A DNA stretch of 64,000 bases from Candidatus Roseilinea sp. Its GTDB lineage: Bacteria > Chloroflexota > Anaerolineae > J036 > Brachytrichaceae. The DNA lies in the NCBI GenBank assembly GCA_025055235.1, contig JANWYN010000070.1, positions 1 through 64,000 of the forward strand, given 5' to 3'. The translations under genes were made by a program, and so were the position numbers. Below, in pieces: positions 791 through 52,330 of this stretch; position 1 is the first letter of the stretch, and each line of letters starts with the position of its first letter. The notes under the pieces are model-generated. The model had not been told where the DNA came from. It saw only the letters and a program-made list of their open reading frames with translations, and did not search any database.

Positions 791-1632
791 CGCGCGATGA
801 GTGGCGCGGCATGGTCGTGGCCAATCAGGGCAAAGACTTTTGTCTCGGCGCGAACATCGGGTTGTTCATCCTGCTGGCCGGCACCGGAGACCCGAACGCC
901 ATCGAAAATGCGGTCAAGGGGCTGCAGGATTACCTGATGGCCTTTCGTTTCTCGCCTAAGCCGGTAGTGACTGCGCCACGTCAGCGCGTGCTGGGCGGCG
1001 GGGCCGAGGTGGCGATGGCCGGCGCGCGCATCGTCGCCGCTGCCGAGACTTACATCGGCCTGGTCGAGTTCGGCGTAGGCGTGATTCCGGCCGGCGGCGG
1101 CTGTAAAGAGTTGTTGCGTCGCGTGGTCTCGCCACACATGACCAACGACAAAGTGGATGCGCTCGGCTATCTGCAACAAGTCTTCGAGACCATCGCCTAC
1201 GCCAAAGTCAGCGAGAGCGCATTCGTTGCCCGCGAGCGCGGCTTCCTTAGCCCATGCGACACAATCGTGATGAACGACGACGACCTGATCGGCGTAGCCA
1301 AGGCCACCGCGATTCACCTGGCCGAGACCGGCTACATGCCGCCTGACCGCAACGCCGCTTCGATCTACGCCATTGGCCGGCGCGGCAAAGCGGCGATGGA
1401 GATGGCGGTGAACACGCTGCGCTGGGGCAAATACATCAGCGAGCATGATGCGCTGATCGCGCGCAAGCTGGCACACGTCCTATGCGGCGGCGATCTGTCC
1501 TCGCCGCAGTGGGTGACCGAGCAATACATCCTCGACCTGGAGCGCGAGGCATTCTGCTCGTTGCTCGGCGAGCCGAAGACGCAGGAACGCATCAGCTACA
1601 TGTTGAAGTATGCCAAGCCGTTGAGGAATTAG
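763..1632 (+). CDS. FadN-type enoyl-CoA hydratase/isomerase domain, 3' fragment of the interrupted gene
   Basis: This is the enoyl-CoA hydratase half of the same interrupted enzyme. Sequence resembling the family already starts at base 592 in this frame (NASASIHDLGDGILNLEFHSKGN before the first ATG), so the ATG at 763 is only the first methionine available to a split gene and would miss the start of the crotonase fold. Crotonase features follow: ANQGKDFCLGAN and the oxyanion-hole region VLGGGAEVAMA. If the 541-590 insert is removed the two parts make one polypeptide. The TAG stop at 1630-1632 shares its last bases with the heptamer array that follows. Confidence 0.8.
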   Translation: MALEALEMLARDEWRGMVVANQGKDFCLGANIGLFILLAGTGDPNAIENAVKGLQDYLMAFRFSPKPVVTAPRQRVLGGGAEVAMAGARIVAAAETYIGLVEFGVGVIPAGGGCKELLRRVVSPHMTNDKVDALGYLQQVFETIAYAKVSESAFVARERGFLSPCDTIVMNDDDLIGVAKATAIHLAETGYMPPDRNAASIYAIGRRGKAAMEMAVNTLRWGKYISEHDALIARKLAHVLCGGDLSSPQWVTEQYILDLEREAFCSLLGEPKTQERISYMLKYAKPLRN

Positions 1633-1684
1633 TTGCAGGTTGTAGGTTGCAGGTTGCAGGCTGCAAGTTGGAGCTTGCAGATGG
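1632..1684 (+). repeat. Heptamer array, word GTTGCAG (left member of an inverted pair)
   Basis: Seven-base words run GTTGCAG, GTTGTAG, GTTGCAG, GTTGCAG, GCTGCAA, GTTGGAG, CTTGCAG. Variation is mostly transitions at fixed word positions. The array starts on the stop codon of the preceding gene and ends just before the Shine-Dalgarno of the four-helix-bundle gene. Its reverse complement is found at 2071-2115 on the other side of that gene. Confidence 0.9.
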
Positions 1685-1693
1685 AGGGCAGCA

Positions 1694-2062
1694 ATGGCGA
1701 CAATTCAGCGCTTCGAGGATATTGAATCATGGAAGACAGCGAGGCAACTCACGCGTGCCGTTTACGAGCTGTCAAGGCAGGGTGAGTTCGCGAAGGACTT
1801 CGGCTTACGTGATCAGATGCGACGCGCTGCGGTGTCCGTCATGTCCAACATCGCTGAGGGATTTGAAAGTCGGACGCGCAGTCTATTCGCCGAGTATCTC
1901 GGCAGAGCAAAGGCGTCGTGTGGTGAGCTGCGCGCACAAGCCTACGTTGCGCTAGATGCGAACTACATCCAACAGCAATTCGAGACGCTAGTAAACATGT
2001 GCATCTCGTGCAGCAAACAAATCCACGCTTTCATCACCTATCTCAAGACAAAACCGGAATGA
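1694..2062 (+). CDS. Four-helix-bundle protein (23S rRNA intervening-sequence / Avd-like family)
   Basis: A 122-residue protein of the 23S_rRNA_IVP family (TIGR02436 type). The diagnostic pattern is present: RFEDIESWKTARQL near the N-terminus, then FAKDFGLRDQMRRAAVSVMSNIAEGF, and a C-terminal helix pair with GELRAQAYVALDANYI. Known members form small basic helical bundles; relatives occur in rRNA intervening sequences, and Avd, the accessory protein of diversity-generating retroelements, is also in this family. A GGAGG ribosome site precedes the ATG. The gene sits exactly between two inverted heptamer arrays, which suggests it travels with, or acts on, these repeats. No reverse transcriptase gene is seen in the window, so a complete retroelement is not supported. 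Confidence 0.92.
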   Translation: MATIQRFEDIESWKTARQLTRAVYELSRQGEFAKDFGLRDQMRRAAVSVMSNIAEGFESRTRSLFAEYLGRAKASCGELRAQAYVALDANYIQQQFETLVNMCISCSKQIHAFITYLKTKPE

Positions 2063-2070
2063 TCCGGACC

Positions 2071-2115
2071 CGCAACCTGTACCCTGCAACCTTCAACCTG
2101 TAACCTGCAACCTGC
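2071..2115 (-). repeat. Heptamer array, word TGCAACC (right member of an inverted pair)
   Basis: Words run CGCAACC, TGTACCC, TGCAACC, TTCAACC, TGTAACC, TGCAACC. Read on the minus strand this is the same GGTTGCA word as the array at 1632-1684, so the two arrays face each other across the four-helix-bundle gene with about 390 bp between them. Confidence 0.9.
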
Positions 2116-33821: not shown

Positions 33822-33827
33822 TTTTAA

Positions 33828-33972
33828 GGTTGCTGGGTTGATAGGTTGCTGGGTTAATAGGTTGCTGAGTTGATTGGTTGTCGAGTCAATCGGTTGATAG
33901 GTTACCAGATGCGATCTCAATCGGTGCGTGAACCCAGCAACCCAGCAACTCAGCAGCCCAGCAACCTCGCAA
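33828..33972. repeat. Octamer array forming a large palindrome
   Basis: Left arm (33828-33907) is made of eight-base words GGTTGCTG, GGTTGATA, GGTTGCTG, GGTTAATA, GGTTGCTG, AGTTGATT, GGTTGTCG. Right arm (33929-33972) holds ACCCAGCA, ACCCAGCA, ACTCAGCA, GCCCAGCA, ACCTCGCA, the reverse complement of the left words. About 20 bp separate them. It lies between the divergent NUDIX and gamma-glutamyltransferase genes. Confidence 0.9.
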
Positions 33973-33973
33973 C

Positions 33974-45869: not shown

Positions 45870-46013
45870 CATCGCGTATCGCGTTAGCACGTTGGCACGT
45901 TAACACGTTGCACGTCTTGCGTCTTGCGTCTCGCGTCTTGTGTCGTGCGTTACGTGACACTCGATGCATGACACTTGGCACTCGAACACATGACATGCAA
46001 TACGCAACACGGT
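45870..46013 (-). repeat. Heptamer arrays, words CTTGCGT and ACACGTT (left member of an inverted pair)
   Basis: Eight-base GCACGTTG-type words lead into CTTGCGT, CTTGCGT, CTCGCGT, CTTGTGT (the reverse complement of ACGCAAG), then GACACTTGGCACT and ATGCAATACGCAAC. The same blocks occur in reverse complement at 47533-47693, on the far side of two genes. Confidence 0.85.
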
Positions 46014-50071: not shown

Positions 50072-52252
50072 ATGAGCCCGATCAGCGACGCTGTGACGCA
50101 TTCGACAAGCTCAGCGACAAGCTCAGCGACAAGTGTGACAACGAATCCGACGACCAACTCGGTCGCCAACGCGATGCCTCTGTCGCGCGAAAAGCTGCTG
50201 AGTATGTTGCGACAGATGCATCTCATCCGCGCCTTCGAGGAAGCTGCCGAACAGCAATACTTCGCCGGCAAGGTGCACGGCACGATGCACCTGTATATCG
50301 GCGAAGAAGCCGTGGCGGTCGGCTGCATCGCTGCCCTGGAGCCGCGCGACCAGATCACCAGCACCCATCGCGGCCACGGCCACGCCATCGCCAAAGGCCA
50401 AGCCGTGCGCGAGATGATGGCCGAACTGTTGGCCAAGCGCACCGGCGTGTGTCGTGGGTTGGGCGGCAGCATGCATATGGCCGATGTCGAACTGGGCAAC
50501 CTGGGCGCCAACGGGATCGTCGCCGGCGGCATGGGCAGCGCGGTGGGCGCGGCGCTCAGCGCGCACTTGCTGAAGACCGGCCGAGTGGTGATGTGCTTCT
50601 TCGGCGACGGCGCGGCCAACAACGGCAACTTTCACGAAACGCTCAACCTGGCTTCGATTTGGAAGCTGCCGGTGGTGTTCGTTTGCGAGAACAACCAGTA
50701 CGCCATGAGCATGCCTGCGCGCGAGGCGATTCCCGTGCGCGTGGCTGACCGCGCGGCTGCCTACGCCATGCCCGGCGTGCGCGTAGATGGCATGGATGTG
50801 CTGGCCGTGTACGCCGAGGCAAAGCGTGCTGTAGATCGCGCCCGCGCCGGCCAGGGGCCATCGCTCATCGAGGTGCTGACCTATCGTTACAGGGGCCACT
50901 CGCGCAGCGACAAACAGGTGTATCGCACCAAGCAGGAGGTCAAAGAATGGCAGGAGCGCGACCCCATCGCGCGCTTCGAAGCATGGTTGATCGAGAATGG
51001 GTTGATCGGGCGCGAGCAGGCCGACGCCATCCGCCAGGAGGTGCTGCGCGCCATCGAGGAGGCGGTGGCCTTTGCCGATGCGTCGCCCGAGCCTGATCCT
51101 GCTACGTTGCTGGACGAGGTGTATTACGAAGAGCCGGCCAACCGCACCGACCGCGCCTTGCGCGGCATCACCTTGCAACCCCCGGCGCCGTTCAACGGCC
51201 GGCCACTGCCCACCTGGTTCACGCACACGTTCGCGCAGCACGCCGGCAGCGAGCCACCGCCCGGCACACGCGAGCTGACCGGCAGCGAAGCCCTGCGCGA
51301 AGCGATGGCGCAAGCAATGGAGGCTGCCCCCAACGTCATCCTCATCGGCGAGGACATCGGCAAATACGGCGGCGCGTTCGGCGTCACGCTCGGCCTCTAC
51401 GACCGCTTCGGCCCGGAACGCGTGCGCGACACGCCCATCAGCGAGAACGCCATCGCCGGCGTGTCGTTCGGCGCCAGCATGACCGGCCTGGTGCCCATCG
51501 CCGAGTTCCAGTTTCAAGATTTCGTCACGTTGGCCATGGAGCAGATCGTGCTGCAGGCGGCCAAGGTGCGTTACATGTTCGGTGGGCGCACGATCTGCCA
51601 GATGGTGATTCGGCTGCCGGCCGGCAGCGGCACCGGCGCAGCGGCACAGCACAGCGAGAGCCTGGAGTCGTGGTTCGTCAACGTGCCCGGCCTCAAGGTC
51701 GTTGCACCCAGCACGCCCTATGACATGAAGGGCTTGCTGCTGGCGGCTATCGCCGATCAGAACCCGATCATCTTCGTCGAGCACAAACTGCTCTACAAAG
51801 CCAAGGGGCCGGTGCCGGAGCTGCCCTACATCGTGCCGATCGGCAAAGCGGTGGTGCGCCGCGAAGGGCGGCATCTCACCATCGTCGGCGCAAGCATCGC
51901 CGTGCCGCGCGCGTTGGGGGCCGCCGAGAATTTGGCCGGTGAGGGAATTGAGTGTGAAGTGATTGATCTGCGCACGCTCAAGCCGTATGACCTGCACACG
52001 ATTGTGCAATCGGTGAAGAAGACCGGCCGCCTGCTGATCGCGCATGAAGCGCCGCTCATCGGCGGCTATGGCGGTGAGATCGCCGCAGCAGTAGCGCAGA
52101 GCGAAGCATTCGCCTATCTGGAAGCACCGATCGTCCGGCTGGGTGGCGCTGATGCGCCGATGCCTTACAACCGCACAATGGAACGCGCGGCCACGCCACA
52201 AGTCGAGGACATCGTCGAGGCAGCGCGCAGGTTGGTGCGGTTGCAGGTGTAG
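50072..52252 (+). CDS. 2-oxoacid dehydrogenase E1, fused alpha and beta subunits
   Basis: A 726-residue thiamine-dependent E1 with alpha (about 38-355) and beta (about 400-726) subunits in one chain. The TPP motif is [17 protein letters not shown] (GDG at 178-180); the alpha part has the phosphorylation-loop-like [10 protein letters not shown]; the beta part starts [29 protein letters not shown]. It decarboxylates pyruvate, acetoin or a branched 2-oxoacid. Residues 10-21 ([10 protein letters not shown]) come from a duplicated TTCGACAAGCTCAG element, and homology starts at [12 protein letters not shown], so 50174 is an alternative start. TAATTT 6 nt before the first ATG hints at a leaderless message. 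Confidence 0.93.
50101..50133. repeat. TTCGACAAGCTCAG element, copy 3, inside the E1 coding sequence
   Basis: TTCGACAAGCTCAG is followed by a second CGACAAGCTCAG and the start of a third CGACAAG. Here it is not palindromic but is a tandem 12-bp duplication that stays in frame and encodes Ser/Ala/Thr repeats. Confidence 0.6.
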
Positions 52253-52256
52253 TTAC

Positions 52257-52330
52257 GAGTTACAGGTTACGGGTTACAAGTTACAAGTTACAGGTTGCAG
52301 GTTGCAGGTTGGCTGCAGGTTCAGGTTGTG
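52257..52330 (+). repeat. Heptamer array, words AGTTACA and AGGTTGC
   Basis: Words run AGTTACA/GGTTACG/GGTTACA then change to AGGTTGC, AGGTTGC, AGGTTGG and GCAGGTTC. It fills the gap between the E1 and E2 genes; the E2 ATG follows 6 bp later. Confidence 0.88.

Follow-up and report, generated by a model that had tools for sequence, protein, structure and literature searches.

The window, a stretch of 64,000 nucleotides of Candidatus Roseilinea DNA, contains an IVP/S23p gene placed between two arrays of one seven-base word in opposite orientation, and comparison with related genomes shows that the gene and both arrays are gained or lost as one unit. The word is tied to the lineage of the protein, and its cargo-less arrays are numerous mainly where the cognate gene has been retained. 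We propose, with a probability of about 0.5, that the unit is one copy of a bacteria-wide, IVS-like family of ~0.5 kb, with a protein that works in trans on the word of its unit. The family has a simple architecture, an IVP/S23p gene between two inward-pointing word arrays with its own word on both arms, and the pair of gene and word looks like a widespread, little-noticed selfish element without a known transposase.

The unit in the window and its counterparts in the genome

The central gene (1694-2062, + strand) encodes a protein of 122 amino acids with a pI of 8.9. Its sole Pfam match is PF05635 (hmmscan E=8e-30, 103.6 bits against a curated cut-off of 33.8, covering profile positions 1-105 of 106), and it also matches TIGR02436 (E=5e-29, 100.7 bits against a cut-off of 24). 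The AlphaFold model, a monomer prediction, is an all-helical four-helix bundle with a pLDDT of 95, which Foldseek matches to 2gsc (TM ~0.9, E 4e-6), 2rld (0.86) and the Avd structure 4dwl (0.84). The Avd-like fold named in the original prediction is therefore supported by the 4dwl match; the likeness of IVP to Avd has already been published (PMC10053308). Family proteins are basic (median pI 8.5), and a Xanthomonas homologue is a homopentameric ring (PMC4990558).

The left, upstream array (1632-1684, + strand) consists of about seven head-to-tail copies of GTTGCAG and begins at the stop codon of the upstream gene; TRF reports 7.0 copies with 78% matches over 1632-1680. The right, downstream array (2068-2115, - strand) holds about seven copies of the same word inverted (ACCTGCA/CTGCAAC; 6.9 ACCTGCA copies, 78% matches). 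TRF thus identifies one word in opposite orientation on the two sides and, together with the profile matches, confirms that a 23S IVP/Avd-family gene lies between inverted arrays of a single heptamer. The left array aligns with the reverse complement of the right over 39 bp with a score of 48, compared with at most 27 at other loci. The limits of the whole unit, 1633-2128, are given by an empty site in the congener G008, which reads GAGGAATTAG joined directly to GAGTAATCATG. The upstream neighbour is a FadB-like enoyl-CoA hydratase gene (2-1632, TAG at 1630-1632) and the downstream neighbour a thiolase gene with its ATG at 2138, and the unit fills the gap from the stop codon of the first to the ribosome-binding site of the second. 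It contains one gene only, an IVP, and its host position is between two protein genes and not in 23S rRNA.

The layout is far beyond chance. There are 93 period-7 arrays in 415 kb of this genome and 1 in a Markov control, and the window unit is the sole wide-gap (150-1500 bp) matched inverted array pair in a background sample of ~1.7 Mb from ten genomes, in which no other genes were found between such arrays. Period-6 and period-9 arrays are also present in this genome (16 and 29), many of which are probably coding repeats.

The genome of the window (G000, in which the window contig is C48) has 11 PF05635 genes in its assembly, nine of which are flanked on both sides by period-7 or period-8 arrays. 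When the left arm is aligned with the inverted right arm, scores are 39-65 within a locus and average 19.5 between loci, and the observed sum was reached in none of 100,000 permutations of arm pairing. The nine loci use nine words: GTCGCTG, GACAAGGG (locus L002), GTTGCAG, CGTTGGCA (locus L004), ATCGTGA, AGTAACT, AAATTGA, ATCTTTC and TCGGGAG. The two array-free genes are L011, a weak partial match, and L010, which is like the Avd of a diversity-generating retroelement (DGR) and lies beside a reverse transcriptase (RT).

Recurrence, orientation and inheritance

Among 60 genomes of relatives, meaning those given as the same genus, family or class by the search, 43 contain the family. Arrays flank family genes elsewhere as had been anticipated: matched inverted flanks were found at 68 of 103 testable relatives' genes and at 14 of 6574 control positions, the latter taken from this genome only. 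A cross-phylum set was scored against shuffles instead; here 41 of 78 loci score above 100 shuffles with some margin, and arrays lie on both sides of the gene in 48 of 78. Its named genomes belong to Planctomycetota, Bacteroidota, Cyanobacteria, Proteobacteria, Acidobacteriota, Bacillota and others, and the sample represents one subfamily because a tight alignment was used. We also observed that family genes often lie within ~300 bp of contig ends in drafts (G002:C27, G009:C239, G047:C531, G004:C177 and others), as if arrays break assemblies; draft genomes will undercount the family.

Units lie sense-oriented between co-directional genes. With gene strands assigned by a simple codon-usage caller, array-flanked family genes share their neighbours' strand in 139 cases and oppose it in 2 (105 and 9 in the cross-phylum set), whereas both neighbours lie on the same strand for 81 of 194 control genes from this genome. 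This bias indicates that the unit relies on host transcription. It belongs to gene-bearing units, since cargo-less arrays show no enrichment between co-directional genes (48 of 67, versus 129 of 202 of all gaps). Purines predominate in the upstream arm of 71 of 80 units; arms have a median of 6 repeats, conserved positions within them are contiguous (Wilcoxon p=2e-10), and AG or GG is present in most conserved array cores. A location in rRNA was rejected, as an Rfam scan found no rRNA in any of 40 related loci. In an Anaerolineaceae genome, a 6S RNA gene lies directly 3' of an array-flanked family gene (L288:1956-2132).

Junctions from eight genomes of the same genus or family record the history of the window site. 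The unit is complete in G004 and has the same word. In G006 the two arrays enclose a gene with an internal deletion, G001 retains fragments of the two arrays together with the gene's first codons, and G005 has about one heptamer; G002 is without the unit and G008 is clean. In another genus (G021, G025 and G009), the site holds a homologous gene with AAGTGCTA or AAAAGTGG on both sides. The L004 site is full in G002, truncated in G005 and empty in G003 and G006, and the L005 and L002 sites give similar series, G005 being empty at the former. Since a given site is fully occupied in some congeners, decayed in others and cleanly empty in yet others, the gene and its arrays are one unit; the search for empty sites that the original prediction put forward thus succeeded. 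Decay by deletion is common among units. The window's site is shared with outgroup genomes, which makes loss, and not a missing gain, the probable reason for many absences. One intergenic spot is used recurrently by different words: in G004 and G007 (L143 and L144), the L004 site contains a cargo-less GCGTATT hairpin where G000 and G002 hold the family gene.

Comparison of the empty sites revealed no target-site duplication, and no near-identical family genes were found at different sites within a genome. The closest family members of different genomes sit at orthologous sites, i.e. they are inherited vertically. Recent transposition inside a genome is rejected on the lack of near-identical genes at separate sites, and this lack of recent copies indicates that movement of the gene is slow or rare. 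The suggestion that the layout is that of a RAYT or an IS was not upheld, there being no transposase and no visible target duplication; an insertion sequence is rejected on the same two grounds.

Array word and protein lineage are linked. Where units at orthologous sites differ in word, the two arms have switched together. The window unit and L069 illustrate this, with a within-unit score of 58 and a cross-species arm score of 14, and L006 compared with L042, L051 and L054 shows a joint change of word in both arms within the genus. More similar proteins tend to have more similar words, both at sites that are not orthologous (Mantel r=0.19, p=0.0005) and between phyla (r=0.19, p=0.0004). The 8-mer GACAAGG is common to L002, L062, L071, L077 and L082, and AGCTATC to Geothrix, Hydrocoleum, Methylobacillus and others.

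Cargo-less arrays and their cognate genes

The original prediction made the window protein the partner of the heptamer arrays scattered over the window. These arrays are not one family; they comprise many words, and only some are of the GTTGCAG word. Since each gene pairs with its own word, the window protein could at most be partnered with arrays of GTTGCAG, and not with all arrays of the window. A cargo-less GTTACAG/GTTGCAG array found by TRF at 52249-52319 (+ strand; GGTTGCAGGTTGCAGG at C48:52293) is cognate to the window gene. At 45882-45950 (+ strand), a cargo-less CGTTAGCA/CGTTGGCA 8-mer array, cognate to the L004 family gene, is followed by a CGTCTTG 7-mer array, and an inverted pair of cargo-less 8-mer arrays, AGGTTGCT and CCAGCAAC, occupies 33827-33973 with a gap of ~69 bp and an inverted score of 38. 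A cargo-less GACGCAA hairpin lies within the FadB-like gene at 540-591. It is an insertion, of ~50 bp in G000, relative to the empty site, and 57 bp in G006, and four congeners (G001, G002, G005 and G008) lack it at the corresponding position of the gene. The insert in the window puts the halves of the FadB-like gene in different frames, whereas the 57-bp version of G006 is in frame.

Abundant arrays in genomes lacking the gene had been named as evidence against a link between gene and arrays. The opposite was found: the sampled family-less genomes, which are close relatives, have 8 period-7 or period-8 arrays in 781 kb (~1 per 100 kb pooled), against ~12-25 per 100 kb in most family-rich samples (24.6 in this genome, 15.2 in G006 and 12.3 in twenty other family-bearing genomes). 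Some family-bearing genomes are array-poor, namely G008, with 1.0 per 100 kb despite 5 genes, and G053, with 3.0.

Amplification of a word into cargo-less arrays is seen mainly in genomes retaining its cognate gene. For four words in nine congeners, counted without the gene's own unit, the mean number of loci is 7.3 with an intact cognate gene and 0.5 without any trace of one (Mann-Whitney p=0.0002; permutation within words p=0.0002, within genomes p=0.008); these p-values overstate the case and are indicative, because relatives are not independent. Words were defined, hits merged into loci, and presence, remnant or absence assigned by hand from tables. The word GACAAGGG has 17 and 12 extra loci in the sole two carrier congeners, 1 in a third and none in six. 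The weakest case is the window word itself. GTTGCAG has 17 loci in this genome and 8 where the gene is decayed, only 1 in G004, where the gene is full, and 4 in G002, which is without the gene. The cognate link is therefore imperfect. AGAATCC has no loci in G002 although the gene is present, GGAGATT arrays occur in G000 without a gene of that word, and G021 has more than 40 matches to GTTGCAG arrays, an orphan amplified word, as none of its 10 family genes was found with GTTGCAG. Separately, TTCTCAA/AATTGAG arrays with many perfect copies occur at L004:1038-1064 and at dozens of loci in G004 and G006; this is the word of the L007/L052/L056 subfamily, and both of these hosts carry the gene.

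Possible mechanism and relation to known systems

A stronger reading, less likely than not, is that the units form a two-part selfish system without a recombinase or transposase of its own, in which a word-specific ring of the Avd fold drives array spread and homogenisation of the arms through host DNA metabolism, protein and word co-diversify across bacteria, and the 23S IVSs are one specialised branch. In the element family proposed at the outset, a basic, probably pentameric IVP ring would recognise the core conserved among the repeats of its own array, binding several of them together on a folded single strand. The IVP would then promote annealing, and host replication or repair enzymes would place copies of array DNA at new sites, intergenic or prone to hairpins, with the two arms being homogenised by strand annealing and template switching. 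The gene itself might persist by riding in host operons, expressed by read-through. Ring binding, array copying, arm homogenisation and the role of host enzymes are inferred. The net effect would be like that of RAYT with REPINs, an Avd-fold nucleic-acid chaperone replacing the transposase. If the cognate link holds, then one family would explain the function of IVP/S23p, the origin of 23S intervening sequences and the origin of bacterial heptamer arrays; each IVP should prefer its own array, and a REPIN-like population would be kept within a genome without a transposase.

The same layout might alternatively arise from an RNA-level element without active mobility, whose arrays are kept for pairing in the operon transcript. 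RNase III would cut the stem and free the IVP message, as in the 23S IVS, and the protein or the processing would regulate the operon or shield it from the insert. The sense orientation of the units in co-directional pairs, described above, is in keeping with this idea, as is the predicted RNA, in which the two arrays pair into a long, interrupted stem that includes ~22 uninterrupted pairs (-191.9 kcal/mol for the whole window unit, z -4.4); the Coxiella 23S IVS moreover combines a stem, an S23p ORF, heptamers and an RNase III cut (PMC4990558). However, only 143 arm differences would preserve G-U pairing in the sense RNA, whereas 216 would disrupt it (p=1e-4), so that the strand-specific test is significant in the wrong direction, and sense-RNA pairing as the force keeping the arms alike is rejected. 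Cargo-less amplification of the cognate word is also left unexplained, and we consider an RNA-level element rather doubtful. It is also unlikely that an IVP gene arrived by other means and used ordinary slippage-prone repeats, or hairpins already in place, as landing sites, with no functional link between gene and arrays. Heptamer arrays without a gene are indeed common in this genome, and at the L004 site two congeners have a cargo-less hairpin built from another word. Yet array-free empty sites exist (the window site in G008, the L004 site in G003 and G006, and the L005 site in G005), which indicates that arrays come or go with the gene, and the correlation between word and protein, the cognate amplification and the near absence of arrays in family-less genomes likewise argue against landing on unrelated repeats.

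Dependence on reverse transcription, either as a DGR relative or by retro-mobility with the IVP as an Avd working with an RT in trans, is brought to mind by the Avd fold and by two RT matches in this genome. Both lie away from C48, on contigs C93 and C142, and one is beside an Avd-like gene: L010 (L348; G000 C142:17556-18778) is a weak, array-free PF05635 match ~300 bp from a same-strand reverse transcriptase, and the two are probably a DGR with its Avd. This explanation is very improbable on the distribution of RVT_1, which had no match in 6 of 8 congeners searched; all but one of these 6 carry PF05635 genes, so an RT is not needed. G006, a single-contig genome with seven family genes and abundant arrays, is among those without a match. 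The unit as a DGR component is rejected on G006 and on the array-free state of the DGR-like Avd L010. The window unit shares with DGR Avd (PDB 4dwl, 8ub7) the fold (TM 0.84 to 4dwl) and the basic charge, but is unlike it in having no RT, template repeat or variable repeat, and only the PF05635/TIGR02436 match.

The selfish system proposed here resembles several known ones in part. We found no report in the open-access literature of IVP genes outside rRNA between inverted heptamer arrays, or of cognate genome-wide words. The cyanobacterial STRR heptamers and the TAACTGA repeats of Beggiatoaceae (PMC4679880) are likewise intergenic head-to-tail heptamers; however, they are described as direct repeats without a partner gene, and PMC4679880 is silent on IVP/S23p. 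In the RAYT/REPIN system (PMC3116915), as here, a long-lived, vertically inherited single-copy gene lies between inverted copies of a short word that also occurs in many cargo-less hairpins, mainly where the cognate gene is kept. The units differ in encoding an all-helical IVP and no Y1/HuH transposase (TnpA_REP), in having arrays of 5-7 tandem 7/8-mers with no common tag in place of single palindromes tagged GTAG/CGTC, and in using many different words within one genome. The absence of the transposase means that the unit is not a RAYT-REPIN pair.

The closest relative of the unit is the 23S rRNA IVS, for example that of Coxiella burnetii, which has been called a selfish element. RNase III cuts the 28-bp inverted-repeat stem of that IVS, which also contains an S23p ORF and, just upstream of the ORF in the cut stem, 2-4 tandem GACAGAT heptamers (PMC4990558); IVP genes also occur in rRNA insertions of CPR bacteria (PMC11270868). 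Like the 23S IVS, the units have a PF05635-family ORF between inverted terminal repeats that form a predicted stem around it, measure ~0.43-0.5 kb, and lie in sense orientation within a host transcript. Unlike it, they are located in the mRNA region of operons and not in helix 45 of 23S rRNA, and both of their ends are long one-word arrays, the word being specific to the locus and amplified genome-wide.
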